From Coriobacteriia bacterium (GTDB taxonomy: Bacteria; Actinomycetota; Coriobacteriia; Anaerosomatales; SLCP01): a DNA stretch of 45,969 nucleotides. This document shows, in pieces, positions 3 to 43,580 of this stretch; the stretch's first letter is position 1, and the number at the start of each line of letters is the position of its first letter. The notes beneath the pieces are model-generated. The model ran no database searches and was not told the origin of the DNA. It was given only the letters and a program-made list of their open reading frames with translations. The stretch is from positions 1 to 45,969 of the forward strand of contig SKMN01000061.1 in assembly GCA_007121015.1 (NCBI GenBank). The letters are read 5' to 3'. Made by a program: the position numbers and the translations under genes.

Positions 3-1307
3 CCGATCGACTCGCTCGCGCTCGCCGGCGGGGCATCGGCCGATATCGTCGTGACGGTGACGGTGCCGCCTGGGGCATCGCTCGGCACCCAAGACGTCAC
101 CACCGTGCGCGCCCAGCTTGCCGGCGATGCGGCCACCTATGGGGCCGCCCGCGACACGACCACGGTGCGCCGCGAACTCAGCATCGCCCCCGACCGCGAG
201 TCCGTGGGCGGACCCGGCACGTCCGTCTTCTACCTGCACACCGTCGCCAACAACTCGGCCGAGGAACGCACCATCGATCTATCGGCGCTCTCCTCGCTCG
301 GGTGGGACGTGAGCCTCTACGCGGCCGACGGCGTCACTCCCATCACCTCGGTCGCGCTCGACGCGTACGGCGGCACGGCCGACATCTACGTTCGCGTGAG
401 GGTCCCGAGTGGCGCGAGCTCGACTCACACCGACACGACGACGGTCACCGCCTCGTACGGATCCGTGTCCGCCTCGGTCACCAACACCACGAGCGTGCAC
501 ACCCTCGCGACCTACGACGGGCCAGGCTACTCGAACGTATGTACCTCATTCGTCCCCGGCGAGACGGTGTACGCGCGCGGCATGGGGCTTACCGGCTACT
601 CCGAGGTCCGATTCCGCTGGATCGACGCGAACGGGACGCTCGTCCACATGAGCGCCCCGGTAGGCGTCGACTCGCTCGGCACGGCGTTCAACTTCTACCC
701 GCTGCCCGCGAGTGCTGCTCTCGGACAGTGGACGCTCGTGCTCGTGAACGCGTCGGATGACGCCGAGATCTCCCGAAGCTACTTCGACGTCACACCCGAT
801 GCCGAGATCACCGCGCTGAGCGCCACTGACGCGCCCGGCCTCGGAGACACGGTGCACGTGTCGTCGAGCGTTGCGAACAGCGGCGGCCAGGCCATCACCG
901 GCTCGACGATGACGTACGTGATCTGGTGGGACGCCGACGGTGACGGCGTGTTTAGCGCCGGTGACCTCTACATCGATTCGAACGGTGGAAGCCAGGTGTG
1001 GGACGGCGTCTCGGCGGTCAACACGCACGTCACCACCGGGATCGATGTGTCGGCTGGCGAGACGTGGACCGAACCGTCGCCGCTGGCGGTCTCCAACACG
1101 AACTTCCCGAACCAGGGCACGTACCGCGTCACCGCGACGTGGCGCACGAGTTCCGGAGCGCTCATCGATACGCGCCTGACCGAGTTTTACTCGATCCCTG
1201 CCCTCGGCTGGCCGCTCTTCGTCCTCACCGTGATGCTCGGTGTAGGCTTCATGTGGCAGGCCCGGAACCGCCTCGTACCCGCGCTCGTGAGGAGGGATGA
1301 GCGATGA
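3..1307 (+). CDS. Secreted repeat protein with exosortase-type C-terminal tail (5' truncated)
   Basis: The reading frame is open from the left edge, so the true start lies upstream; the GTG at 51 is internal. About 434 residues are visible. There are two related beta-rich segments: the edge sequence reading PIDSLALAGGASADI is echoed about 100 residues later by PITSVALDAYGGTADI, suggesting tandem extracellular NEW3/DUF11-like domains. A CARDB-like segment with a Ca-loop-like DADGDGVFSAGD follows. The C-terminus is tripartite: IPALGW, a hydrophobic helix of about 17 residues, then a basic cluster (QARNRL..RR). This resembles IPTL-CTERM sorting signals of exosortase substrates. Its stop overlaps the exosortase start (ATGA), so the two are probably translationally coupled. 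I infer that it is the substrate of the neighbouring exosortase. A plain membrane-anchored surface protein is the alternative. Confidence 0.85.
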   Translation, partial: PIDSLALAGGASADIVVTVTVPPGASLGTQDVTTVRAQLAGDAATYGAARDTTTVRRELSIAPDRESVGGPGTSVFYLHTVANNSAEERTIDLSALSSLGWDVSLYAADGVTPITSVALDAYGGTADIYVRVRVPSGASSTHTDTTTVTASYGSVSASVTNTTSVHTLATYDGPGYSNVCTSFVPGETVYARGMGLTGYSEVRFRWIDANGTLVHMSAPVGVDSLGTAFNFYPLPASAALGQWTLVLVNASDDAEISRSYFDVTPDAEITALSATDAPGLGDTVHVSSSVANSGGQAITGSTMTYVIWWDADGDGVFSAGDLYIDSNGGSQVWDGVSAVNTHVTTGIDVSAGETWTEPSPLAVSNTNFPNQGTYRVTATWRTSSGALIDTRLTEFYSIPALGWPLFVLTVMLGVGFMWQARNRLVPALVRRDER

Positions 1308-1897
1308 TCACGTCGCCCGTCTTTCTCCTGGTCGCAGCGGCTGCGTGGGCGCTCCTCACATGGCGACTGTGGAGCACCCGGCGCTGGCTCGTCTACTACA
1401 TCACCGGAGCCGTGGGCTTCGTGCTCCTCGCCATCTCGGTCCTGCGCACGTTCGGGCTCGACGCGTCCGTCGAGTACGTCCAGGCGCAGCAGGTGGTCGC
1501 GCTCGCCGGGCTCATCGGCATAGAACTCTCGCATCTCGGCGCGTCGGGACTCGCGATCCCCAACCACACCGGCTGGGCGATATTCGACATCGGCATCGAG
1601 TGCTCGGCGCTGCTCGAGACGTTCGCGTTCACCGCTCTCGTCGCGTTCTACCCGGCGTTTCGGCGCGGACATAAGGCGCGCCTCGTGGCGCTGGGTGTCG
1701 CGGCGACATGGGTCGTCAACCTCCTGCGCATCCTGCTCATCGTCGGCATCATCAACGCGCTCGGCACGTCGTGGGTCTACCCCGCGCACGCCGTGTTCGG
1801 CCGCCTGTTCTTCTTCGTGGCGACGATCGCCATCTACTGGTACCTCGTCACCCGCCCGACCATAGCGGTCGTCTCCGGCAACCTCGAGGAGGCGTGA
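1304..1897 (+). CDS. Exosortase family transpeptidase (XrtG-like)
   Basis: A 197-residue polytopic membrane protein with about six hydrophobic helices. The three exosortase/archaeosortase catalytic residues are visible in the right order and spacing: Cys100 in GIECSALLE, Arg142 in NLLRI, and His162 in AHAVFGR. The family is thought to cleave C-terminal tripartite tails of surface proteins and transfer them to an envelope acceptor. The short length without extra domains, the Gram-positive host and the adjacent family-2 glycosyltransferase fit the XrtG subtype as I remember it. The start is ATG with GGAGGG about 8 bases upstream, and it overlaps the stop of the putative substrate gene. Family assignment is strong; subtype and actual substrate are inferred. 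Confidence 0.9.
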   Translation: MITSPVFLLVAAAAWALLTWRLWSTRRWLVYYITGAVGFVLLAISVLRTFGLDASVEYVQAQQVVALAGLIGIELSHLGASGLAIPNHTGWAIFDIGIECSALLETFAFTALVAFYPAFRRGHKARLVALGVAATWVVNLLRILLIVGIINALGTSWVYPAHAVFGRLFFFVATIAIYWYLVTRPTIAVVSGNLEEA

Positions 1898-3462
1898 TGG
1901 ACAGCCTTCTCGTATTCGTACTCGTGTGGGGTGTGTGGCTCATCACGCCCGTGCTGATCGACGGCATGGACGCCGTGAGCAGGCTCGTCGTCGTCAAATC
2001 ACGCCAGCGGCAGTTCTCGCGCCGGCGGCACTTGTCAGACGACGAGCTGCCGACCGTCTCGCTCATCGTTCCGGCATACAACGAGGCCGAGGTCATCGAC
2101 CGTTGCCTGACCTCGATCAAAGCGCAAGACTACCCGCACGAGAAGTTCGAGATCATCGTGGTCGACGACGGCAGCGACGACGGGACCCCCGAGAAGGTCG
2201 AGCACCACGCCAACGGTGGGACCGCCGAGAACGGCGATGCGTTCCGCCTGCGCGGGCGAGCGATCCGCGTCGGCCCGTTCCGCGGCACCATCACCCTCAT
2301 CCGGCGCGAGCGCGGCGGCAAGTCCCAGGCGCTCAACGCCGGCATCGAGTCGAGCTCGGGCGAGATCGTCATCAACATCGACAGCGACGTCGTGCTCCAC
2401 CACCACGCCATCCGCAACATCGCCGCCGCGTTCGTACGCGACCCCGAGCTCGGCGCGCTCACCGGAAACATCGAGATCGACTGGGACGTGCTCGAGGCGC
2501 GCGACGAAGAGGGCCGCCTCGTCCTCGACGAGGAGGGCCACGTCGTCCCGCGGCCCCTCGACACGATGGAGCGCTTCCTCTCCAAGTCGCAGTTCCTCGA
2601 GTTCCTCTCCTCGTTCGACCTCGGCCGCCGCTCTCAAGCGCTCACCGGCACGATGTTCACGCTCGCAGGCGCGTGCTCGGCGTTCCGTCGCGACATACTC
2701 CCCTGCGGACCGTGCTACTCCAACACGACGGTCTCCGAGGACACGTGCCTGACGTTCGAGCTCCACCGCAACGACGTCAAGATCGGGTTCGCCGAGGACG
2801 CGAAGGTCTACCTCGAGCCGGTCGTGAACTGGGACGAGCTGTACGCACAGCGTGCACGCTGGACGCGCGGACAGCTCGAGGTGTGCGGTATGCACGAGGA
2901 GATCATCGGGAAGCACACGCACGGCGCGTTCTCGCGCCGCTCGCTCCCCAAGACCCTCCTGCTCGACCACACGCTCGCGTTCCCCCGGCTCATCTGGGCG
3001 CCTCTGATCCTCTTCTTCCCGATGCTCGGCTACTCGTGGGCCGTCATCGGCATGGCGCTCGCGGGGATGTACGCGTTCTACGTCGCGATCGAGGCGCTCA
3101 ACACCGTGACCGTGTTCGCCATCTCCGATGAGCACACACGCAGCCGCATCGAGCAGTGCGGGTGGACGCTGTTGTTCCTGCCGCTTTTCCGGTTCATCGT
3201 GTTCCACTTCCGCTTCTCCGGGTTCCTCGTTACCCTCATGGAGGAACCGCAGTGGACCATCAAGGGTCCGGTCGACGAGATGCAGGACGGACTTCGCCTC
3301 ATGCGCGTACGCTCGATCGAGTTCGTGACGATGATGGTGGGCTCACTGACCACCGCCGTACTGCGCGTCGGGCGGTTCGCACTGTCGACACTCGGCCCGC
3401 TCCTTGTGACGCTCGTCGTCCTGGCAGGACGATTCGACGCGTATTGGAAGCGGTCGGCGTAG
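1897..3462 (+). CDS. Processive family-2 glycosyltransferase, exosortase-associated
   Basis: 521 residues. One N-terminal membrane helix (about residues 3-22) precedes a cytoplasmic GT-A domain with VSLIVPAYNEAEVI, VVDDGSDDGT, the DSD metal site at 162-164, a SED acceptor motif and QRARW, the signature of processive GT2 enzymes such as hyaluronan or cellulose synthases. Several C-terminal helices follow. An insertion of about 28 residues lies between the nucleotide-binding strand and GGKSQALN. The ATG at 1897 is preferred because GAGGAGG precedes it and it overlaps the exosortase TGA; the frame stays open further upstream but that part is antisense-like shadow. It probably polymerises or transfers sugar for the envelope acceptor or for glycosylation of sorted proteins. 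XrtG loci are known for a partner GT2. Confidence 0.9.
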   Translation: MDSLLVFVLVWGVWLITPVLIDGMDAVSRLVVVKSRQRQFSRRRHLSDDELPTVSLIVPAYNEAEVIDRCLTSIKAQDYPHEKFEIIVVDDGSDDGTPEKVEHHANGGTAENGDAFRLRGRAIRVGPFRGTITLIRRERGGKSQALNAGIESSSGEIVINIDSDVVLHHHAIRNIAAAFVRDPELGALTGNIEIDWDVLEARDEEGRLVLDEEGHVVPRPLDTMERFLSKSQFLEFLSSFDLGRRSQALTGTMFTLAGACSAFRRDILPCGPCYSNTTVSEDTCLTFELHRNDVKIGFAEDAKVYLEPVVNWDELYAQRARWTRGQLEVCGMHEEIIGKHTHGAFSRRSLPKTLLLDHTLAFPRLIWAPLILFFPMLGYSWAVIGMALAGMYAFYVAIEALNTVTVFAISDEHTRSRIEQCGWTLLFLPLFRFIVFHFRFSGFLVTLMEEPQWTIKGPVDEMQDGLRLMRVRSIEFVTMMVGSLTTAVLRVGRFALSTLGPLLVTLVVLAGRFDAYWKRSA

Positions 3463-3463
3463 C

Positions 3464-5833
3464 ATGAGCGACAAGGGGCCAGCGAGTCCTGCGCTGCGCA
3501 CGAGCCGGTCGTGGCCGACGGTGGCGGGCGTGGCCGGGATGATGCTTGTCGCCACGCTGCTCGTCTTCCACCGAGTGAGTGCGGCCGTGCGACTCGGACC
3601 GGAGTGGGACACGTACGCCTTCCTCGCTAACGCCGCCGAGTTCGCAGGGAAGGGCTTCGGCTATACCGAGCCGCACCGTCCCCCGTTCATGTCGTTCCTC
3701 ACCTCGCTGTGGTTCCGGGTCGCGCCGTTGTCCGAAGCCCCGATCCAGTGGGTCGACGGGATTCTGACGCTCTCCGGCGTACTCGCGGTCTACCTGCTTC
3801 TGCGGCGCCGCGTCTCATTCCCGCTCTCGCTCGCCGGCGGACTCGCCTTCCTCGGCGTGACCCCTGTGTGGGAATGGCTCGGTATGGGCTACACCGATAC
3901 CCCGTCCGTCGCACTCTCGCTGTGGGCACTCCACGCCGCCATCCTGGCGACCGAGCGCGACTCGCGCTGGTACCTGGCGCTCGGCCCGCTCTTCGTGCTC
4001 GCCTCGCTGACGCGCTTCACGGCACTCATCGTCGGGTTCCCGATAGCAGTGTGGGTCCTGCTGAGGTGGGCGCCATTCCGCCACGCCAAACACGTGGCCG
4101 GGGCCGTGCTCACCGCAGCAGCGACCTACCTCCCGGCGGGCATCTACTACATGGCGCGGATGGGCGACGCGCTCTTCCCCTTCCTGTTCGCGTTCACGCT
4201 GAGCGAGGTGGTGAGCACGCCGGGCGGTGAGGGCGCTGCTTCCGCCGACGCGCTGCACTACGTCCGGAACCTGCCGGGCTTCTTTGCGAACCCTGAGTAC
4301 ACCGTGCTCGCGATCCTCGTGATCGGCGTTGGCCTCTACGCTCTCCTGTACGCCCTGTTCGCCGATGGGCTCCGCACGTCGCGCCCGGGCCCGGGGGCGG
4401 TAGCGGTCGCGATCGCCGGTGCGGCAGTAGGTGTGGCGGCACAGTTCGGCGGCGGGCTGGTGGTGCGGCAGGTCGCGATTCCCCTGGCGATCGTCGTCGT
4501 GTGGCGTGCACTCGCGCCACGCGAGCCAGCAGCAGAAGCCGGCTCCAGGGGCCGTGTCGCACCGGCCGCCGCGCTCGATGCCGTCATGCTCGCCTGGCTG
4601 CTCGCCTACTTCGACTTCCACGGCCACCAGACGATACAGATCGCGCGGTACTACATCCCCATGGCCGTCCCGGTGCTCTACTTCGTGCTGCTCGGGTGGG
4701 ACCTGCTCGCTCACAGGCTCGGCGTGCTCGTTCGCTCGGTGTGGCCAGCGAAGGCGCGTTCCGTTGCTGCTGAGGCGGCCCCTGTTGCGATCGCCGCAGG
4801 CGTGTCCCTAGTCCTCCTCTTCAGTACTGTCTCGATGGCAGCGTCGCCATCACCGGCCCCGTTCATCGGCATCGATGCGGCTCGCGACTCCGCACTGTGG
4901 GTCGACGAACACCGCGCCGACAGCGACCCGGTCGTCTCGGACCTGTGGCCGCACACCAGCTGGTTCTTGCGCGCGGAGATCCCTGCGATGCCGCTGTTCA
5001 CGGACTCCCGTGCGTTCAGCCACCAGCTCGACAAGTCCGCAGCCGAGTTCTACCTCACCGTGCACCCGGACAGAAACTACGACGCGTACGAGCCTGCTGC
5101 CTCCTTCGGCGTTGTCGAGGTCATCCGCCGAGGTGACGTCCGCGCCGCCGAACTGCCTCGAATCCTCCACCTGGGTACGGCGTGGACGAACTACATCGAG
5201 TCCCTCACCGGGTACGCCTACTACCTCGATTCGACGGCCGGCCGGTACGGCTTCGAGGGAAGCGCGTACCTCGACGCGTACACAGCGTCCGAGCTCGGCG
5301 GTTACGACGCGGTCACGGTCGCCTCGTACCGCTGGCGTGACCGCGGCGCCGGCGAAGACGCGCTGCGCGGGCACGTCGAGGCCGGCGGCTCGGTGATCAT
5401 CGACGCATCTCAGAACCTCGGTGGCCTTGCGTACGCCGTCACCGACACGATCATGTTCGACACCGTCATCCGCCGCGGCCAGCTCGCGCCCCACGCGCCG
5501 ATCGAGCTGTCAGCGTCGTTCGCAACGCGCCATCCGGACGTCGGCTCCGTCAGCGCCGCTCCGTGGATAGACGAGGGCGGCGGCACGTGGACCGGCGCCA
5601 CCTACGAAGCGCGCCCGGGAAGCCCCGCGCTCGAGACACTCGCGACGGTGGGGGGCAGACCGCTCGTCCAGATGCAGCGGCTCGGCGAGGGTCGGATCTA
5701 CTGGATCTCCTACAACCTCGCCTGGCATGCGTTCGTCTACGAAAACGACAGTGAGGCCCGTCTCATCCGAGCTGTGCTCGACGACGCGATCGCTAGTGCT
5801 CGAGCGTCTCGCTCGACGGCTTCCGCACCGTAG
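3464..5833 (+). CDS. GT39/PMT-like membrane glycosyltransferase with extracytoplasmic GATase1-like domain
   Basis: 789 residues. The N-terminal half is a GT-C fold: helix at about 20-40, then acidic loop GPEWDTYAFL with Asp49 and the RPPF motif at 72-75, followed by many hydrophobic helices up to about residue 460. This matches PMT/ArnT-type enzymes that use polyprenyl-phosphate sugars on the outer face of the membrane. The last 330 or so residues are soluble and predicted extracytoplasmic. They contain YDAVTVASYRW, GHVEAGGSVIIDAS and GEGRIYWISYN, a pattern like the class-I glutamine-amidotransferase fold seen in ThuA/DUF4350-type proteins, without an obvious nucleophilic Cys. It starts one base after the GT2 stop, so it is in the same operon. 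A relationship to the PTPS-related membrane proteins of XrtG loci is possible but unverified. The 3' end overlaps the convergent gene by 41 bases. Confidence 0.8.
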   Translation: MSDKGPASPALRTSRSWPTVAGVAGMMLVATLLVFHRVSAAVRLGPEWDTYAFLANAAEFAGKGFGYTEPHRPPFMSFLTSLWFRVAPLSEAPIQWVDGILTLSGVLAVYLLLRRRVSFPLSLAGGLAFLGVTPVWEWLGMGYTDTPSVALSLWALHAAILATERDSRWYLALGPLFVLASLTRFTALIVGFPIAVWVLLRWAPFRHAKHVAGAVLTAAATYLPAGIYYMARMGDALFPFLFAFTLSEVVSTPGGEGAASADALHYVRNLPGFFANPEYTVLAILVIGVGLYALLYALFADGLRTSRPGPGAVAVAIAGAAVGVAAQFGGGLVVRQVAIPLAIVVVWRALAPREPAAEAGSRGRVAPAAALDAVMLAWLLAYFDFHGHQTIQIARYYIPMAVPVLYFVLLGWDLLAHRLGVLVRSVWPAKARSVAAEAAPVAIAAGVSLVLLFSTVSMAASPSPAPFIGIDAARDSALWVDEHRADSDPVVSDLWPHTSWFLRAEIPAMPLFTDSRAFSHQLDKSAAEFYLTVHPDRNYDAYEPAASFGVVEVIRRGDVRAAELPRILHLGTAWTNYIESLTGYAYYLDSTAGRYGFEGSAYLDAYTASELGGYDAVTVASYRWRDRGAGEDALRGHVEAGGSVIIDASQNLGGLAYAVTDTIMFDTVIRRGQLAPHAPIELSASFATRHPDVGSVSAAPWIDEGGGTWTGATYEARPGSPALETLATVGGRPLVQMQRLGEGRIYWISYNLAWHAFVYENDSEARLIRAVLDDAIASARASRSTASAP

Positions 5834-6743
5834 CGAGGATGAGAGCGCCGGCAAGACCGGGCAATAGGATGAGCATGCCCAACTGCAAGAGCGCAGCCTG
5901 TGCCGCGACCGCCTGGTCGACTCCGGCGCGCACGAACAGTGCAGCCATCGTGAACTCCCCGACCCCGATGCCACCAGCGGATATCGGGATGAGTCGCGCG
6001 ATCGTCGAGAGCGGCGCGAGCGCGAACACCGTGAAGATATCGATGGGCGCGCCGACCGCCCGGCAGCACGCATATACGACGGTGTACGTGACGATCCACG
6101 CGGCGAACGACACGGTCCACACCTTTGCTAGCAGCCGCAGGGGCGGCCGGGCCTGACGGGCAACCACCTCTTCATCGAGATGCGCCCGCGGCGCAAGGAA
6201 CCTGAGCAGGAGCCGCCACAACCCTCCGGTCGGCACCGCGAACGGCACGAGCGTCGCGAGCGCGATGACGCCGGCCACCCCGGCGAGCACCGGGTCGCCG
6301 GCGACCACCGCTCCCACGACACCCATGGCGGCGAGCGCCGTGAGCGACGTGAGCTTGTCGAAGACCGACGAGATGACCATCTCCTCGGCATGCCCGTGGA
6401 CGGTGAGCCCGTAGCGTGCCTTCAGTAGGTCGGCGGCGCCCATCGGCAAGATGAGCGCGATGCCGGCGCCTACGAGCGTGAGCCGGTATAGGTGCCACGG
6501 ACCGAGCAATCGGCCGTGAGCGTTGAGCAGCAGCCCGTGGTTGTACGCTCTCACCCAGACACTGAGCGGGACGAGCGCGACGCCAAACGCGAGCCACTCG
6601 GGCCGCATCGCGCGCACGGTGGCGAGGTCGCCGAAGCCCGCGGCGCGCGCGAGCACGTAGACGAGCCCGAGCGCGACGGCGATCCGCAGCGTTCTCCACG
6701 CTATGCGCAGCGCTCTGTCACGCATCGCGGCGGTCACCGGCAT
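5793..6743 (-). CDS. UPF0104 / lysylphosphatidylglycerol synthase TM-domain protein
   Basis: About 316 residues, highly hydrophobic with about eight helices, of the LPG_synthase_TM (UPF0104) family: RAYNHGLLLN, the PMGAADLLKARYGL segment and SAGGIGVGEFTMAALF near the C-terminus are typical. Family members include the flippase half of MprF and many proteins of unknown role next to glycosyltransferases. No cytosolic synthase domain is fused. I chose the ATG at 6743 because AGGA lies about 7 bases upstream; the in-frame ATG at 6725 is possible and the longest frame (to 6821) has no ribosome site. It overlaps the end of the upstream glycosyltransferase by 26 bases, so the two form an operon. A lipid-linked sugar or lipid-transport role is inferred only from context. 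Confidence 0.8.
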   Translation of the reverse strand: MPVTAAMRDRALRIAWRTLRIAVALGLVYVLARAAGFGDLATVRAMRPEWLAFGVALVPLSVWVRAYNHGLLLNAHGRLLGPWHLYRLTLVGAGIALILPMGAADLLKARYGLTVHGHAEEMVISSVFDKLTSLTALAAMGVVGAVVAGDPVLAGVAGVIALATLVPFAVPTGGLWRLLLRFLAPRAHLDEEVVARQARPPLRLLAKVWTVSFAAWIVTYTVVYACCRAVGAPIDIFTVFALAPLSTIARLIPISAGGIGVGEFTMAALFVRAGVDQAVAAQAALLQLGMLILLPGLAGALILATVRKPSSETLEH

Positions 6744-7683
6744 CGCGCATCCTGCGCACATCGGCTTGGAGACGGATGACCGAGCGGCGCATCTCCAGCA
6801 GCTGCGACGCGACGATCGCAAAGCCGAGCGCCCCCGCCCCGCCGAGGAGGAGCAAGACCATGACGGTCATCAGCGGCCGCTCGGGGTTCAGGTCCCCCGA
6901 GAGGAACACGCCGAGGAGGAACGATCCTACCGCGACGGCGGCGAGCAGAAGGAGTATGCCAAAGAGACCGAACAGCGAGGCCGGCCGTGCGAGCACGCTG
7001 AACAGCAGGTGGCTCGCGACGGTGGCCTTGGGCCGGAACTTCGAGCGCCCCTTCTTGCGAGCCCGGAGCGTCGCCGGCATCTCGACGATGCGGTAACCGA
7101 GCGCCATCGCCTCGGAGAGGATCTCGAGGTGGATCTCCTTGCTGTCCGAAGCCAGATCGAGCGAGCGAAGCACGTCACGGCGGTACGCGCGCACGATGCC
7201 GGTGCTGGTGTAGACGCGCTCGGGAAGCGCGGAGCGGAGCACGACGTTGCCGACCCGCGAGAACGCGAGCCGCACGAACGGCACACCCTCGACAGCGCCC
7301 CCGGGCATGTACGGTGAGGCAAGCACGATGTCCGCCTCGGGGTCGTCGAGAAGTGTCTGCACCATTCGCACGAGGTGGTCGACGGTATAGCTGAGGTCCG
7401 CATCGATCGAAGCGACGATGTCGCCGCGAGCCCGGGCGAATCCCTGCCGCAGCGCGTAGCCGCGGCCGCGGTTGATCCGGTACGACACCGGACGCAGGCG
7501 GTCGTCCCGCTCGCCCTCGCGCGTGAGGATCGCGCCCGTGTCGTCGTTGCTGCCGTCGTCGACGGGGATGAGCTCGTAGTCCCACCCGCGCTCGACCAGT
7601 GCCGCGCCGACCGCAGCAAGTGTCTCGGTCGCGTTCTCGGCTTCGTCGTGCATGGGGATGACGACCGAGATGAACGGCTCCAC
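6718..7683 (-). CDS. Family-2 glycosyltransferase, DPM1/polyprenyl-phosphate type
   Basis: 321 residues. A GT-A domain carries ISVVIPMHDEAEN, VDDGSNDDT and the DADLSY metal site, then a basic juxtamembrane segment (RARKKGRSKF) and two C-terminal hydrophobic helices (about 230-255 and 265-290). The layout matches polyprenyl-phosphate mannosyl/glucosyl transferases that make lipid-linked sugar donors. The GTG at 7683 is preferred over the longest frame because GGGAGGA lies 5 bases upstream and the family-typical N-terminus begins at once. It is co-transcribed with the UPF0104 gene. It could supply the donor for the GT39-like enzyme encoded nearby on the other strand, but that is inference. Confidence 0.88.
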   Translation of the reverse strand: MEPFISVVIPMHDEAENATETLAAVGAALVERGWDYELIPVDDGSNDDTGAILTREGERDDRLRPVSYRINRGRGYALRQGFARARGDIVASIDADLSYTVDHLVRMVQTLLDDPEADIVLASPYMPGGAVEGVPFVRLAFSRVGNVVLRSALPERVYTSTGIVRAYRRDVLRSLDLASDSKEIHLEILSEAMALGYRIVEMPATLRARKKGRSKFRPKATVASHLLFSVLARPASLFGLFGILLLLAAVAVGSFLLGVFLSGDLNPERPLMTVMVLLLLGGAGALGFAIVASQLLEMRRSVIRLQADVRRMRDAGDRRDA

Positions 7684-8039
7684 TGAGTCCTCCCGTCCCA
7701 CGATGGTTGCGCGCGCACGCCGGCAACCGTTCATGCCTGCCGTGCGACAGTATAGCGCTCCGCCACCCTCACCACCGCCCCGGTGGCTGTGCAGGCGACA
7801 TGATCTCCACCCTCACTCATGCCGGCGGGGGATACCCGCTCCTACCGACCGGCTGCTAGGGTCTGGGTAGGCCTGAGGGGGTCGTGCGCATCCACATTGG
7901 GGATTCGAGCGTTACAAGCACTGACACGTACCGCTCATCCCCGACAAACGGTTGCCGTTCGTCATAACCGGCTCATGATTGCCGACTGACGGCCCGATAT
8001 TAGGGATGAAAGGTCATTCCGCGAGGTAGGGAGAGTACG
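7684..8039 (+). other. 356-base divergent intergenic region
   Basis: No convincing gene. It holds a possible -10 (TATACT on the minus strand, 7749-7754) for the glycosyltransferase operon without a clear -35, a REP-like stem-loop at 7825-7845, and the ribosome site GGGAG just before the small gene at 8040. The stretch 7880-8000 is less GC-rich than its surroundings, as expected of a promoter region, but I cannot identify boxes. Confidence 0.5.
7825..7845 (-). repeat. REP-like palindrome with GTAGGAGC head
   Basis: Read on the minus strand the unit starts GTAGGAGCGGGTATCC and folds as GCGGG-TATCC-CCCGC. The plus-strand 12-mer acccgctcctac recurs exactly at 10610-10621, also intergenic. The head and stem resemble the REP elements of Pseudomonas, known to be mobilised by RAYT transposases. 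No RAYT gene is in this window. Confidence 0.5.
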
Positions 8040-8249
8040 ATGTCAACGCTCATCGCCATGATCGTGTACGGCGCGTTCGCCATCGGCTACGTACTCATCC
8101 TCGCGCTCACGGAGCGCAGCGCCAGCACCTACGTCGCGAACGGCTGCACGACGCGCCACGAGCGCACGACGATCGCCCTCGCTCCCGTTATGACCGCCCC
8201 GGCGACCGCAACCACTCCCGCCGCCGCACGCACCGCGCACGCGGCCTAG
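8040..8249 (+). CDS. Small single-pass membrane protein
   Basis: 69 residues. One hydrophobic helix (about residues 4-24, STLIAMIVYGAFAIGYVLIL) is followed by a short Ala/Thr-rich, mildly basic tail with no recognised motif. It is supported by an ATG preceded by GGGAG at 8 bases and by an isolated position with its own upstream intergenic region. I do not recognise a family. It could be a stress-related small membrane protein. A chance frame in GC-rich DNA cannot be excluded. Confidence 0.5.
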   Translation: MSTLIAMIVYGAFAIGYVLILALTERSASTYVANGCTTRHERTTIALAPVMTAPATATTPAAARTAHAA

Positions 8250-8285
8250 CGTCGCCGAGCGCGCACTAGGCGCAGACATCGCGCC

Positions 8286-9728
8286 TCAGCCGCGCTCCCG
8301 CATCCACCGGTCCATCGCTCGAGCGGCCTTCTTGCCCGCCCCCATCGCTTCGATGACCGTCGCCGCCCCGGTGACGATGTCGCCGCCCGCGTAGACGCCC
8401 GGCAGGTTGGTCGCCCCGTCGTCGTTGGTGTGGATATAGCCGCGGCTGGAGAGCTCGAGGTCGGGCGCGGTCTGCGTCACGAGTGGGTGGGCGCGCGTCC
8501 CAACAGCGATGATCACCGTGTCGCACTCGATCTCGAACTCGCTGCCCATCACGCACACCGGCGACCGGCGTCCACTGTCATCGGGCTCGCCAAGCTCCAT
8601 ACGGTTGGCGACCATCCCGGTCACGAACCCTTCACGCCCCACGATCTCCACCGGCGAGCAGAGCATCTTGAACGCCACGCCCTCCTCGGCGGCATGGTGG
8701 ACCTCCTCGCGCCGCGCCGGCATCTCATCTTCGGTACGGCGGTAGACGAGAAACACCTCCTCGGCCCCAAGACGCAGCGCGGTGCGCGCCGCATCCATCG
8801 CGACGTTCCCGCCGCCCACGACCGCGACCTTGCGCCCGCGCGCGACCGGCGTGTCGGCGTGCGGGAACTCGTAGGCGCGCATGAGGTTCACGCGCGTGAG
8901 GAACTCGTTGGCCGAGTAGACGCCGTTGAGGTTCTCCCCGGGGATGCCGAGGAAGACCGGCAGCCCCGCTCCCGCGCCGATGAACACGGTGTCGAAGCCC
9001 TCTTCGCCCATGAGCTCATCGAGGGTGTACGTCGCGCCGATGACCGCGTCGGTGACGATCTCCACACCCATCTGAGCGAGCATGTCGATCTCGGCCTCGA
9101 CGATGTCGAGCGGCAGGCGGAACTCGGGAATGCCGTACGTGAGCACGCCGCCGGTGGCGTGGAGCGACTCGAAGATCGTCACCGCGTTGCCGAGGCGTGC
9201 GAGTTCACCGGCGCACGCGAGCCCGGCCGGGCCCGAGCCCACGATGGCCGCCCGGTTGCCGGTCGCGGGAGCGACCTCGGGCACGCAGCGGCCCTCGAGC
9301 TCGCAGGCGAGGTCGTAGTCGCCGAGCCACCGCTCGAGCCGCCCGATCGCGACCGGCTCGCCCTTGCGCGCAAGCACGCACACGATCTCGCACTGCTCCT
9401 CTTGTGGGCACACGCGCCCACAGATCGCCGGAAGCGCGTTGCGCTCCTTGAGTACGGCGACAGCGGCAGGGTAGTCGCGGTCGATCATGTGCGCGATGAA
9501 CGACTTGATGTCGATGTTGACCGGGCAGCCCTCGATGCACGTGGGATTCTTGCACTGGATGCAGCGCATCGCCTCGGCGTGCGCCATCTCTTCCGTGTAG
9601 CCGATAGGGACCTCAGCGAAGTCTTGCGCCCGCTCGGCGGCCGGACGCTCCGGCATCGACACGCGCGGTCCGCGCGACGGCTTGTGGCGGGGCTTCTCGG
9701 CCCCGGTCCCTTGCTCTACTGATGACAT
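8286..9728 (-). CDS. nfnB: NADPH-dependent glutamate synthase small-chain-like protein / NfnB (SudA)
   Basis: 480 residues. The N-terminal Fe-S domain has Cys56, 59, 64 and 68 (CIQCKNPTCIEGC) and a second set around ICGRVCPQEEQCEIVC. The FAD site is VGSGPAGLACAGELA, and the NADPH Rossmann site is VVGGGNVAMDAARTALRLGA. This architecture is shared by GltD, SudA and NfnB. The partner gene immediately upstream encodes an FAD/2Fe-2S subunit of the PyrK/NfnA type, so an NfnAB complex (NADH-dependent ferredoxin:NADP+ oxidoreductase, flavin-based electron bifurcation) is the best call; sulfide dehydrogenase SudAB is the older name for the same arrangement. The ATG at 9728 overlaps nfnA by 13 bases; the longer upstream frame is nfnA in another frame. 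GltD is unlikely as no gltB is nearby. Confidence 0.92.
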   Translation of the reverse strand: MSSVEQGTGAEKPRHKPSRGPRVSMPERPAAERAQDFAEVPIGYTEEMAHAEAMRCIQCKNPTCIEGCPVNIDIKSFIAHMIDRDYPAAVAVLKERNALPAICGRVCPQEEQCEIVCVLARKGEPVAIGRLERWLGDYDLACELEGRCVPEVAPATGNRAAIVGSGPAGLACAGELARLGNAVTIFESLHATGGVLTYGIPEFRLPLDIVEAEIDMLAQMGVEIVTDAVIGATYTLDELMGEEGFDTVFIGAGAGLPVFLGIPGENLNGVYSANEFLTRVNLMRAYEFPHADTPVARGRKVAVVGGGNVAMDAARTALRLGAEEVFLVYRRTEDEMPARREEVHHAAEEGVAFKMLCSPVEIVGREGFVTGMVANRMELGEPDDSGRRSPVCVMGSEFEIECDTVIIAVGTRAHPLVTQTAPDLELSSRGYIHTNDDGATNLPGVYAGGDIVTGAATVIEAMGAGKKAARAMDRWMRERG

Positions 9729-10552
9729 TGGCACCCCCGCGCGTACTCGGCGTCGGCTTCGCGTTCCTCTTCGTTGTAGACGCGCTGGCGGCTCATCAGC
9801 TCCTCGAAATCCACGGCGTGCCCATCGAAGTCCGGGCCGTCGACGCACCCGAACTTCGTCTCGCCGCCCACCGTGACGCGGCACGCGCCGCACATCCCCG
9901 TGCCGTCGACCATGATCGGGTTGAGCGAGACAGTGGTCGGCACCCCGAACTCGCGCGTCGTCTCGGCGCAGAACTTCATCATGACCGCCGGCCCGATCGC
10001 CATCGCGTGGTCGATCGCGCCCTCCTCGCAAAGCGCCTTGAGCGGTGCGGTGACGAGCGCCTTCTCGCCCGCCGAGCCGTCGTCGGTGCAGACGATGAGC
10101 TTGACCGGGAGCGCCTCGAACTCCTCGCGCAAGATGAGCAGATCCGCGGTGCGCGCGCCGAGGATGACGGTGACGTCCGCGCCCGCCTCGGCCATCGCGC
10201 GGGCGACCGGGTAGGCGACCGCCGCGCCAACGCCACCACCCACGACCGCCACACGCCCGAGCTCGTCGGTGTGCGTGGGCACGCCGAGTGGCCCCACGAC
10301 GTCGGCGAGCGAGTCGCCCACCTCGAGATGCGAGAGCTTGTGCGTGGTCTTGCCGACCTGCATGAAGATGAAGCGGATCCAGCCTTCCTCGGCAGACCAG
10401 TCGGAGAACGTGAGCGGGATACGCTCGCCGGTCGCATCGACGCGCAAGATGAGGAACTGGCCCGCGCGTGCTTTGCGGGCGATACGCGGCGCCTCGACAC
10501 CCATCTCGAAGACGGCGTCGGAGAGGCGGCGTGTGTGAACGATGGGGAACAT
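9716..10552 (-). CDS. nfnA: Ferredoxin:NADP+ oxidoreductase alpha subunit NfnA (SudB/PyrK-like)
   Basis: 278 residues. The FAD-binding barrel carries RIPLTFSDW, the NAD(H) domain has VAVVGGGVGAAVAYPVARAM, and near the C-terminus the 2Fe-2S motif GMCGACRVTVGG..FGCVDGP holds the Cys ligands. A His/Glu-rich tail ends in CQCHQ. This is the small subunit that takes NADH and passes electrons through its FAD and cluster to NfnB. The start is ATG with GGAGG 6 bases upstream. A promoter with TTCACG-16-TATACT lies just ahead. In an anaerobe this pair balances NADH, NADPH and reduced ferredoxin. Confidence 0.92.
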   Translation of the reverse strand: MFPIVHTRRLSDAVFEMGVEAPRIARKARAGQFLILRVDATGERIPLTFSDWSAEEGWIRFIFMQVGKTTHKLSHLEVGDSLADVVGPLGVPTHTDELGRVAVVGGGVGAAVAYPVARAMAEAGADVTVILGARTADLLILREEFEALPVKLIVCTDDGSAGEKALVTAPLKALCEEGAIDHAMAIGPAVMMKFCAETTREFGVPTTVSLNPIMVDGTGMCGACRVTVGGETKFGCVDGPDFDGHAVDFEELMSRQRVYNEEEREADAEYARGCQCHQ

Positions 10553-10582
10553 CGGGCCTCCAGCCTGTCGGACGTGCGAACC

Positions 10583-10610
10583 AGTATACTCATATGAGCC
10601 CGAGCGTGAA
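10583..10610 (-). promoter_or_regulatory. Predicted sigma-70-type promoter of nfnAB
   Basis: On the minus strand TTCACG (10605-10610) and TATACT (10583-10588) are separated by 16 bases, about 30 bases before the nfnA start. The -35 box abuts the REP-like repeat. Confidence 0.5.
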
Positions 10611-10622
10611 CCCGCTCCTACG
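10598..10622 (-). repeat. REP-like element, second copy
   Basis: On the minus strand it reads GTAGGAGCGGGTTCAC and can pair GAGC with GCTC. The plus-strand 12-mer acccgctcctac is identical to that at 7834-7845. The left arm is degenerate compared with the first copy. Confidence 0.45.
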
Positions 10623-10650
10623 ACCCGATGTCGACTAGCCGAGGAGTGCC

Positions 10651-11619
10651 GTGCTGCGATCCGCCATCCTCAGCCTCACCCTTCTCGTCGCGACCGCGAT
10701 GCTCTCCGCGCCGCTCGCGGGCTGTACGGGCGACGGCGCTGCCGAGCCGCTCCACACGAGCCGCGAGGCGCTGGGCACCGTGGTCGCGATCACCGTGTAC
10801 ACGGGAGACTCCGATGCCCGCGCCGCCGAGGTTGCCGACGCGGCGTACGACGCGATGGCGGCGGTCGAGGCGGAACTCGACGCACACGACCCGGACTCCG
10901 CGATCGCCCGCGTCAACAGCGCGCCCGACCCGGCCCTCGAGTCGCTGCCCCCGTATGCCGAGGAAGTGCTCGACGCGATCTGCGCCCTCGAAGTACGCGA
11001 GTGGTTCTCGCCACAGCTGTGGGCCGCGACGGGACTCTGGGCGTTCGAAGACGGCGGCCACGTGCCCTCGGCTGCCGAGCTGGATGCCGCCCTCGCGGAC
11101 CCCCGCTACGACTTCGGCGGTGCGGGGAAGGGGCTCGCGCTCGATGAAGCCGCTGAAATGCTACGCGACTCGCCGGCGGTCGATGCGGCGCTCATCGCCT
11201 CGGGCAGCACGACGCTCTCGCTGGGCTCCAAGCCCGACGGCGAGCCATGGCGCATCGGGGTAGAAGACCCGCGCGACCCCGCGACGCTCATCGCGACCGT
11301 CGAGGCGACCGCCGACATCACCGTTTCGACGTCGGGCGACTACCAGCGGGCGTTCGACCGCAACGGAATCCGCTACCACCACATACTCGACCCGGCCACC
11401 GGGCGCCCGGCCCTCGGGTTCCGCTCGCTCACGGTCGTAGGCGACGTATCGGGCCTCGACTCCGACATACTCTCGACCGCGCTGTTCGTCGCCGGCCCGG
11501 CCCACGCGCTGTCGTATGCCGAGGAGCACGGGCTCGGACTCGTCGTCGTGGACGCCGGGGGCCGGACACATGTCGTGCCCGGCCCCGAGGATCGAACGTG
11601 GGAGATAGTCGCCGAGTAG
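10651..11619 (+). CDS. apbE: FAD:protein FMN transferase lipoprotein
   Basis: 322 residues. The lipoprotein signal peptide ends in the lipobox PLAGC (Cys25), so the protein sits on the outer face of the membrane. ApbE motifs follow in order: GTVVAITVY, DPDSAIARVN, YDFGGAGKGLALD, TVSTSGDYQR, YHHILDPATGRP, and a Mg/active-site region SGLDSDILSTALF. The enzyme attaches FMN by phosphoester bond to Thr/Ser of extracytoplasmic flavoproteins such as RnfG/NqrC-type subunits. The GTG start has GAGGAG 5 bases upstream. It diverges from nfnAB. The target flavoprotein is not in the window. At 322 residues it is close to the usual size. Confidence 0.93.
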   Translation: MLRSAILSLTLLVATAMLSAPLAGCTGDGAAEPLHTSREALGTVVAITVYTGDSDARAAEVADAAYDAMAAVEAELDAHDPDSAIARVNSAPDPALESLPPYAEEVLDAICALEVREWFSPQLWAATGLWAFEDGGHVPSAAELDAALADPRYDFGGAGKGLALDEAAEMLRDSPAVDAALIASGSTTLSLGSKPDGEPWRIGVEDPRDPATLIATVEATADITVSTSGDYQRAFDRNGIRYHHILDPATGRPALGFRSLTVVGDVSGLDSDILSTALFVAGPAHALSYAEEHGLGLVVVDAGGRTHVVPGPEDRTWEIVAE

Positions 11620-41685: not shown

Positions 41686-42393
41686 CTAGAGCGCCATCCA
41701 GACGAGGTACGCCGCCGCGCCGATGAGCGACACGCCGCCGACTCGCTGGAGCCACACGGTCGCTTTCGAGAACGCACGCATGCCCGCAAGCACGCCGGAG
41801 AAGACCGCCACCAGGAGTAGCGGGGCTCCTCGGCCAAGCCCGTAGAGGAAGAGCAGGCCCGCACCGGTAGCCGGGTCGCCGCTCGCAGCAGCAAGCGTCG
41901 CGATAGCGGCGAGCACCATCGAGGTGCACGGAGGTACGACGAGTCCGAACGCCAACCCGAACAGCCCCGCGCCGAGCAGGCCCTTGCGCTCGGGACGCTT
42001 GAGGAAGAAGCGGTTGGCGAAGGAGAGATCGAACTGGAAGACGCCGAGCATCTGCAGGCCGAGCACGACGCATATCCCCGCCATCAGCCAGAGTGCCCAC
42101 GGGCCCACGAGGATCGCCCGGCCGAGGGTGGCGGCGAGCACGCCGATACCGGCCGAGGTCGCCGCGACGCCAAGGATGAAGATTCCGACGAGCGCGAGCG
42201 AACGCACGGTCGTCTCGCGCGCATCGGCCGAGCCGGGGAGCGCGCCGGTCACGTAACCGAAGATGGCGGGCACCATCGGCAACACGCAGGGGCTGAAGCC
42301 GGCGATGACGCCGCCGACGAGCGCGACCGCAAACGAGACCGCAGTGATGCCGGAGGGGTCGGTCCCGAGTCGGAGTGCGAGCTCTTCAAGCAT
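41686..42393 (-). CDS. ccdA: CcdA/DsbD-type thiol-disulfide transporter
   Basis: 235 residues, six helices. Two Cys motifs in the membrane: FSPCVLPMVP in helix 1 and VPPCTSMVLA in helix 4, the redox pair that carries reducing equivalents across the membrane. It would pass electrons from cytoplasmic thioredoxin to an extracytoplasmic acceptor, here most simply the adjacent TlpA-like protein. It starts 6 bases after that gene's stop, so one operon. ATG start. Confidence 0.93.
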   Translation of the reverse strand: MLEELALRLGTDPSGITAVSFAVALVGGVIAGFSPCVLPMVPAIFGYVTGALPGSADARETTVRSLALVGIFILGVAATSAGIGVLAATLGRAILVGPWALWLMAGICVVLGLQMLGVFQFDLSFANRFFLKRPERKGLLGAGLFGLAFGLVVPPCTSMVLAAIATLAAASGDPATGAGLLFLYGLGRGAPLLLVAVFSGVLAGMRAFSKATVWLQRVGGVSLIGAAAYLVWMAL

Positions 42394-42399
42394 CCGTCG

Positions 42400-42942
42400 C
42401 TACTCCGACGCTGCCACGAGGGCATCGAGCCGAGACTGGAACTCCCCTGCCGCCATGGCGCCGGTGAACTGGTCGAAGACCTCTCCGTCGGGCGTGAGGA
42501 AGAAGGTCGTGGGCACGAACTGGAACGACAAGCGCTGGAAGAGCGGACGCGTCCGCGGGTCGCCGGTGGGAGCGTCGACGTACGCGACCGTGCCCGCATA
42601 GTCGGGCATCACGCTGTTGACCGCCTGGGCCGTTTCGATGCACGGCGGACAGCCACCGGAGTGGAAGAACACGACGATCGGCAGGTCCCCGGCGAGTGCC
42701 TGGTCGTAGGCCTCGACCGGGTCGACCGCAGCGGGCGCGCCGGGCTCGCCATTCACGGGCTGGGTCGCGGGCTGGCCGTCGAACAACCGCACGCCGATGA
42801 TCACCGCGAAAAGCACGACGACCGCCAGCCCGATAAGAACGCGACTGCGTGTGCGAGGGGCCTCGGGGGCGCCTGCTTGCTGCGTCTCGGGCGTCGCTTC
42901 CTGCCTACCCTGCTGTGTTCCGCTGTCTCCCGTGTCGCTCAT
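42400..42942 (-). CDS. Membrane-anchored TlpA/thioredoxin-like protein
   Basis: 180 residues. A soluble Gln/Thr-rich N-terminus (1-33), one membrane helix (about 34-52, RVLIGLAVVVLFAVIIGVRL), then an extracytoplasmic thioredoxin fold with the active site GCPPC and cis-Pro segment FVPTTFF. It likely receives electrons from CcdA and reduces periplasmic-type disulfides or metal-binding partners. The ATG at 42942 is preferred to the longer frame, which overlaps the small thioredoxin gene; AGGAG is 4-5 bases upstream. Confidence 0.9.
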   Translation of the reverse strand: MSDTGDSGTQQGRQEATPETQQAGAPEAPRTRSRVLIGLAVVVLFAVIIGVRLFDGQPATQPVNGEPGAPAAVDPVEAYDQALAGDLPIVVFFHSGGCPPCIETAQAVNSVMPDYAGTVAYVDAPTGDPRTRPLFQRLSFQFVPTTFFLTPDGEVFDQFTGAMAAGEFQSRLDALVAASE

Positions 42943-42955
42943 CTGCTCCTGCTCC

Positions 42956-43195
42956 CTACATCGAGTCGCGTATGAGGCGCTCGAGTTCGTCACCGCTCGG
43001 GACGCGACCTGCGGCCTTGACCTGCTCGTCGATAACGAGGCCGGGGGTCGTCATCACGCCGTAGGCCATGATGTCGTTGAGGTCGGTCACCTTCTCGACC
43101 GTCGCATCGATGCCCATCCCATCGACGGTCTCTCGGACCGCCTCGGCAAGCTTCGTGCAGCTGGCGCAACCGGAACCCAGGATCTTGATGTTCAT
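42956..43195 (-). CDS. Small thioredoxin-fold protein (redox-active disulfide protein 2 type)
   Basis: 79 residues. MNIKILGSGCASCTKL carries the CASC active site; YGVMTTPGLVIDEQVKAAGRVPS gives the cis-Pro loop. This glutaredoxin-like family is often found next to ArsR regulators and YraQ/DUF318 permeases, as here. It may be the cytoplasmic reductant for that system. 13 bases separate it from the TlpA-like gene. A ribosome site GAGGACG is weak. Confidence 0.92.
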   Translation of the reverse strand: MNIKILGSGCASCTKLAEAVRETVDGMGIDATVEKVTDLNDIMAYGVMTTPGLVIDEQVKAAGRVPSGDELERLIRDSM

Positions 43196-43244
43196 CGATA
43201 CGTCCTCTCGTCACGTCGGCGTTATACCCGCAATCATCGTGCCG

Positions 43245-43565
43245 TCATAGTTCTGCCAGCTCGGAGGCCACTTGGGCCAGCCGTTCCCGGTCGAGCGTGT
43301 AGTAGGTCCAGAGCCCCTCCTTTCGACCCTGCACGAGGCCGGCGCGGCGCAGCACGCTCATGTGGTGCGAGATCGTAGAGGCCGCCAGACCGAGGTGCTC
43401 GGCAAGCTTGCACGCACATACCTCGGCCGGAGCGCAACACTCCTTCTCGACCGGGGACGACCTCGATGCCTCGCCGAGGAGGCGCAGGATCTCCCTGCGC
43501 TGCTCGGATGCGAGCGCTTTGAACGCTTCGTCGAGCGCCGATGAGGGAGACACGTGCACAGCCAT
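43245..43565 (-). CDS. arsR: ArsR/SmtB-family metal- or redox-sensing repressor
   Basis: 106 residues. Winged helix: LDEAFKALASEQRREILRLL, CKLAEHLGLAASTISHHMSVLRRAGLV and RKEGLWTYYTLD. The alpha-3 segment contains Cys43, 44, 50 and 52 (KECCAPAEVCACKL), the region where ArsR-type alpha-3 sensors bind As(III), Sb or Cd/Pb. The ATG at 43565 has AGGAG 8 bases upstream. It probably represses itself and the permease through TTCGA-N6-TCGAA sites. The metal is inferred, not seen. Confidence 0.94.
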   Translation of the reverse strand: MAVHVSPSSALDEAFKALASEQRREILRLLGEASRSSPVEKECCAPAEVCACKLAEHLGLAASTISHHMSVLRRAGLVQGRKEGLWTYYTLDRERLAQVASELAEL

Positions 43566-43580
43566 CCGGGGCACTCCTAG

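Follow-up and report, generated by a model that had tools for sequence, protein, structure and literature searches.

The window, which is the whole 45,969-nucleotide stretch of DNA analysed here, begins at base 1 of its contig and belongs to a 1.94 Mb assembly that is 98% complete. Positions 3-5833 form a four-gene operon encoding a tailed surface protein, an exosortase, a processive GT2 and a GT39-type enzyme. Open reading frames and junctions were rechecked and agree with the first-pass annotation: genes 1 and 2 are joined by ATGA at 1304-1307, genes 2 and 3 by TGATG at 1895-1899 (the GT2 starts at 1897), and 1 base lies between the stop of gene 3 at 3462 and the start of gene 4 at 3464. The proposed actinobacterial origin also holds. 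The named sequences that these loci match come from uncultured Actinomycetota; several carry the label Coriobacteriia or Coriobacteriales, and they point to Coriobacteriia.

3..1307, + strand: tailed surface protein, C-terminal 434 aa, with Ig-like/CARDB-type repeats, 5' part missing (full-length relatives L019, L021, L022, L024-L026)
1185..1304, + strand: sorting signal (FYS-IPALGW motif, TM helix, basic tail), from an alignment of 17 tails
1194-1214, + strand: IPALGWP, part of the sorting signal
about 1209-1259, + strand: TM helix of the tail, part of the sorting signal
about 1260-1304, + strand: basic tail, part of the sorting signal
1304..1897, + strand: XrtG-related exosortase, 197 aa, with C100, R142 and H162 (plus N139); TIGR04178 above cut-off
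1897..3462, + strand: processive GT2, TIGR03111-related, with DSD 162-164, ED 281-282 and QRxRW 318-322; PF00535
3464..5833, + strand: GT39/PMT-type (PMT_2) membrane glycosyltransferase with D49 and E69; PF13231
5793..6821, - strand: LPG_synthase_TM/flippase-like membrane protein, convergent, start codon uncertain; PF03706
6718..7734, - strand: GT2 like polyprenyl-phosphate sugar synthases (ArnC/AglJ-like), convergent neighbour; HMM matches

The GT39 gene and its convergent flippase-like neighbour share 41 bp at their 3' ends (5793-5833). Far downstream, a cluster at 41686-43574 appears by eye to be ordinary, with likely genes for a CcdA-type membrane protein, for a thioredoxin-like protein (CASC motif) and for an ArsR-type regulator.

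The products of the operon

Because the window starts at a contig end, only the C-terminal 434 aa of the surface protein are encoded. The first-pass description of a tailed surface protein is thus confirmed with a correction: this is the C-terminal half, the contig beginning inside the gene. The missing N-terminal half was not found elsewhere in the assembly. Full-length relatives are about 850-930 aa long, have a hydrophobic segment at the N-terminus and show weak matches to Ig-type Pfam families (FixG_C, NPCBM_assoc, MG2); the ectodomain is Ig-like and adhesin-like. Upstream of the operon, L019 (8537-9295, 9292-10347) has a LytTR response regulator gene next to one for a membrane protein with an NPCBM-like domain. 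Similar genes occur in L021 (1488-3301), again with such a membrane protein, and in L022 (12359-13153); the LytTR assignment is confirmed by Pfam for L019 only. The LytTR protein possibly regulates the operon; the end of the contig hides this region in the window.

The exosortase matches TIGR04178 with 53.0 bits (cut-off 23) and has Cys100, Arg142 and His162 at the positions first reported. C100, N139, R142 and H162 are invariant across 24 aligned exosortases. An AlphaFold model (pTM 0.76) contains helices at 5-24, 28-49, 52-71, 102-114, 121-153 and 155-193, with low confidence for the stretch 85-99 just before C100. With the basic clusters 26-27 and 121-127 taken as cytoplasmic, the model would bring C100, R142 and H162 close to the outer face of the membrane, the expected location of the tail motif. 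No solved structure for this fold was found by sequence, Foldseek gave no significant match, and the papers searched contained nothing on exosortases in Coriobacteriia. Other exosortases of the class are XrtH/XrtX-like (L033:6491-7108, 7134-7751 and L020:6092-6661), and a further exosortase region (L034, about 6350-6700 and 6855-11279) is in the same genome as the fusion described below. Near the L033 and L034 exosortases are tailed proteins ending ASSPWSIAL.. or ASSWWSLALL.. plus RR, a second candidate signal, unlike that of the window, within this class.

Both glycosyltransferases named in the first-pass annotation were verified, and both belong to the locus in nearly all relatives. All 19 GT2 homologues, the canonical XrtG partner of L031 among them, keep the DSD, ED and QRxRW motifs, and D49 and E69 of the GT39 enzyme are conserved in 12 sequences. 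The GT39 homologues of L019 and L107 also have PF10131 PTPS_related matches at their C-termini. L106 and L045 (= L109) have a full PTPS_related protein at the GT39 position. Homologues of the 6718-7734 gene adjoin the operon in seven other loci (clear in L025, L027 and L107, more distant in L106 and L108-L110), and those of the 5793-6821 gene in six others (L019, L022, L023, L025, L027, L028). Such recurrence suggests that both may be members of the system. The 6718-7734 GT2 is possibly the donor synthase for the GT39 enzyme, and the recurrent synthase-like and flippase-like neighbours fit a GT39 enzyme fed by a polyprenyl-phosphate sugar.

The sorting signal, its pairing with the exosortase and a natural fusion

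Alignment of 17 tails revealed the consensus [IV]P[TAVI]LG[WYI], followed by a helix and basic residues; P, L and G of the motif are invariant, and a few loci have Y or I in place of W after LG. The whole block FYSIPxLGWPLF was considered as the signal and rejected: in part, FYS[IV]P closes the final strand of the ectodomain, and tail-less homologues show FFAVP there. As part of FYSIP is thus common to proteins that lack the tail, only IPxLG[WY] and the helix are counted as signal.

We found 18 loci of this kind in at least three classes of Actinomycetota. A TIGR03110 search of 398 genomes of the class detected 12 with this type of exosortase and one with a canonical XrtG (G090); a profile search of 69 genomes of the order recovered exactly these 12, and a sample of the phylum added six loci from other classes. 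The four genes occur in identical order in all 12 order-level loci. In the six remaining loci the tailed protein, exosortase and GT2 are present, and where the contig extends further and the next gene was examined, it is of the GT39 or PTPS_related kind. The tailed protein is directly 5' of the exosortase in 17 of the 18 loci. In the source genome the IPxLGWP DNA pattern has one match in 1.94 Mb, and a reversed control pattern none. Chance is excluded as the origin of the arrangement, because the gene order is repeated in 12 of the 69 genomes searched in the order and in other classes, and because this DNA match is single.

Within the class sample, the tail is present in 12 of 12 genomes with the exosortase (E 1e-16 or better) and in 0 of the other 386, neither occurring alone, although these counts are uncorrected for shared ancestry. 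This concern is reduced by the patchy distribution (12 of 69 genomes, several families) and by the swapping of ectodomains on the tail. A core-tail profile gave one strong match in each of the 17 unfused genomes, always beside the exosortase (E 4e-10 or better); further matches were above E 2e-3 and covered mainly the helix. Neither this profile nor the DNA pattern revealed further substrates in the source genome. The one-to-one pairing of tail and exosortase is strongly supported, and the claim of a dedicated substrate next to its enzyme stands.

The same tail core is carried by three ectodomain families, the long Ig-type, one of ~500 aa (L106, L107) and one of ~300 aa (L109, L110), among which no homology was detectable. 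Conversely, 11 proteins without the tail can be aligned to the window ectodomain over about 400-540 aa. Ten of them are in genomes without any TIGR04178 match, one of these genomes being of the same genus (85% complete); the eleventh is an additional copy in G093. Eight of the 11 were read to the C-terminus (the L060, L063 and L069 ORFs were left out), and these eight have an FFAVPGxP-type sequence and then a non-membrane domain at the end. Judging from these sequences, homologues from genomes that lack this exosortase seem to be secreted, with no membrane anchor. A separate 328-aa protein (L068, G302), from a genome without a TIGR04178 match, ends in SFLGIPVVGWLVF-helix-RRRKKRKN; its motif-like tail is probably due to chance or to another anchor.

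In one genome, on one contig, surface protein and exosortase are a single chain of 1160 aa (L029:3595-7077, - strand, = L043:5037-8558, + strand, JACRBU010000058.1), with the in-frame junction ...TTFFSVPTLGEWGAKLAGMLAPAVTPLLVLLLAAWAFVLVRLWSKRRW.... Here VPTLGEWG leads immediately into the first exosortase helix. The tail lacks its own helix and basic end, and in their place come the first exosortase helix and then basic residues. Sequencing error is an unlikely cause, since the missing part amounts to ~30 residues of helix and basic end, not one base. By the positive-inside rule the first exosortase helix would run from outside to inside, like the tail helix, making the fused topology consistent, and the fusion suggests that the N-terminal helix and basic loop of these exosortases may be similar to the substrate tail. 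The natural fusion ties the tail to the enzyme without experiment. It may also mark a separate Actinomycetota subfamily of exosortases with its own signal [IV]PxLG[WY], in which substrate and enzyme are fusible in cis, a tentative proposal to which we give somewhat less than even odds; if it is true, the L029 enzyme would have to process its own, or its neighbour's, fused substrate.

A candidate sorting reaction and its alternatives

What bacterial exosortases use as acceptor has long been debated as an open question, and one enzyme, one substrate and putative glycan genes in a single operon provide the simplest setting for it. We favour, with a probability of about 0.7, a dedicated one-substrate exosortase operon in which the tail is cut and the protein is probably joined to a glycan or glycolipid made by the operon. 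Cleavage and transfer are deduced from membership in the exosortase superfamily, and the cysteine intermediate, the acceptor and the roles of the glycosyltransferases are likewise inferred. The multi-Ig surface protein would be exported and stay in the membrane through its C-terminal helix, with [IV]PxLG[WY] immediately beyond the outer face and the basic end on the inner side. The exosortase, with C100, R142 and H162 at the outer face in the predicted topology, would cut at or near the motif via a cysteine intermediate and transfer the new C-terminus to a cell-surface acceptor. A glycan is the probable product of the processive GT2, and the GT39-type enzyme may add a sugar from a polyprenyl-phosphate donor; their product, or a lipid carrying it, would be the most likely acceptor, or else would decorate the anchored protein. 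A glycan or glycolipid anchor is plausible.

The same reaction might instead use a membrane phospholipid (e.g., an ethanolamine lipid) as acceptor, the glycosyltransferases separately glycosylating the surface protein. Protein glycosylation outside the membrane is a common activity of GT39/PMT-type enzymes, and the recurrent neighbour resembles polyprenyl-phosphate sugar synthases; both points agree with such a division of labour. It also has a precedent in archaeosortase A (ArtA), whose substrates are C-terminally lipid-anchored with archaetidylethanolamine as the proposed acceptor (PMC7157517). However, no phospholipid enzyme was seen linked to the loci, and a processive GT2, with QRxRW in 19 of 19 homologues, is better suited to a polymer than to one protein-linked sugar. 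We regard a phospholipid acceptor as unlikely, though it is the strongest of the alternatives.

Clearly less probable is that the exosortase cleaves and releases the protein without transfer, and that the glycosyltransferases make an exopolysaccharide which the protein binds non-covalently. Exosortases were originally linked to exopolysaccharide genes (PMC1569441), the Ig-like ectodomain could suit such binding, and its homologues without this exosortase are apparently secreted without an anchor. On the other hand, the Cys/Arg/His set is typical of transpeptidation in analogous sortases, and archaeosortase A substrates end joined to lipid (PMC7157517). The most sceptical explanation is an ordinary exopolysaccharide cluster, in which a tail-anchored and an exosortase-like protein stand together by chance or inheritance and the tail is a membrane anchor only. 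Single TM helices followed by arginines are indeed common, and weak helix-only matches occur in many of these genomes, but the comparative evidence speaks strongly against it: co-occurrence is exclusive, the motif is conserved outside the helix, three independent ectodomains carry the tail, and a fusion exists. We consider it very improbable.

Comparison with known sorting systems

Despite a similar motif, the locus does not belong with XrtH/IPTL-CTERM. The IPTL-CTERM sorting motif is IPTLxxWG, which the window-type motif resembles and which L029 approaches with VPTLGEWG. At E up to 0.1, the listed matches include neither the XrtH model TIGR04177 for the exosortase nor the IPTL-CTERM HMM for the tail, and the enzymes are on another branch of the tree: our group together with XrtG is far from the XrtH-like exosortases of the same class (100/100). 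An IPTL-CTERM tail has been reported for the S-layer protein of Methylomirabilis (PMC8671808). Archaeosortase A/PGF-CTERM shares with the window system the superfamily, a tripartite tail (motif, helix, basic residues) and a proposed cysteine mechanism (PMC7157517); it differs in having several substrates and phospholipid genes, whereas the window has one substrate and glycosyltransferases.

The closest relative is XrtG, as the first-pass annotation had suspected, and TIGR03110 is the best specific family for the exosortase (82.6 bits, E 3e-23). Strict membership did not hold, since the score is below the cut-off of 102.75, as it is for the remaining 11 exosortases of the order. Similarly, TIGR03111 is by far the best family for the GT2 (276.4 bits, E 4e-82), and its cut-off of 363.95 is not reached. 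The tail differs as well: Firmicu-CTERM (TIGR04145), the tail of XrtG substrates, had no match in the window protein (E up to 0.1) or in L019 and L026 (E up to 1), and the same HMM library finds it in L031, L081 and L082. A P-x-L-G core common with canonical XrtG, suggested by the L031 tail TSTMPILG, was discarded because it is absent from E. eligens, Lactococcus and Aneurinibacillus tails. Since two HMM cut-offs and the tail test failed, the system is a variant nearest XrtG and not a member of it. In the tree, the 18 exosortases group together, apart from four canonical XrtG, with moderate support (67/82); mean identity is 45% within the group and 23% to canonical XrtG.

The architecture is closely comparable in the two systems: a CTERM protein, an exosortase, a TIGR03111-type glycosyltransferase and a large membrane glycosyltransferase or PTPS-related protein, with a single dedicated substrate beside the enzyme, the same catalytic residues and the same nearest HMM family. 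The fourth component is PTPS_related in the E. eligens XrtG locus, and the Lactococcus locus ends with a TIGR03766 XrtG-associated glycosyltransferase; in this group it is usually of GT39/PMT-type, and the GT39 gene of the window occupies the slot of the PTPS-related membrane protein of canonical XrtG loci. A 6-carboxytetrahydropterin synthase gene is found in the XrtG operons of L081 and L082 and is absent from the window operon, whose genes 3 and 4 are one base apart. The same four-part XrtG system has been described in Lactiplantibacillus (L. plantarum) (PMC12854382), so the layout with a CTERM protein beside the enzyme is not new, being already known in Firmicutes.

Overall, the exosortase, its dedicated partner and the two glycosyltransferases of the first reading are retained. 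On sequence grounds, the locus is a distant relative of the little-studied Firmicutes XrtG system with a different recognition tag, [IV]PxLG[WY] in place of Firmicu-CTERM, which adds a new sorting signal missed by NCBIfam and extends XrtG-type sorting widely within Actinomycetota.
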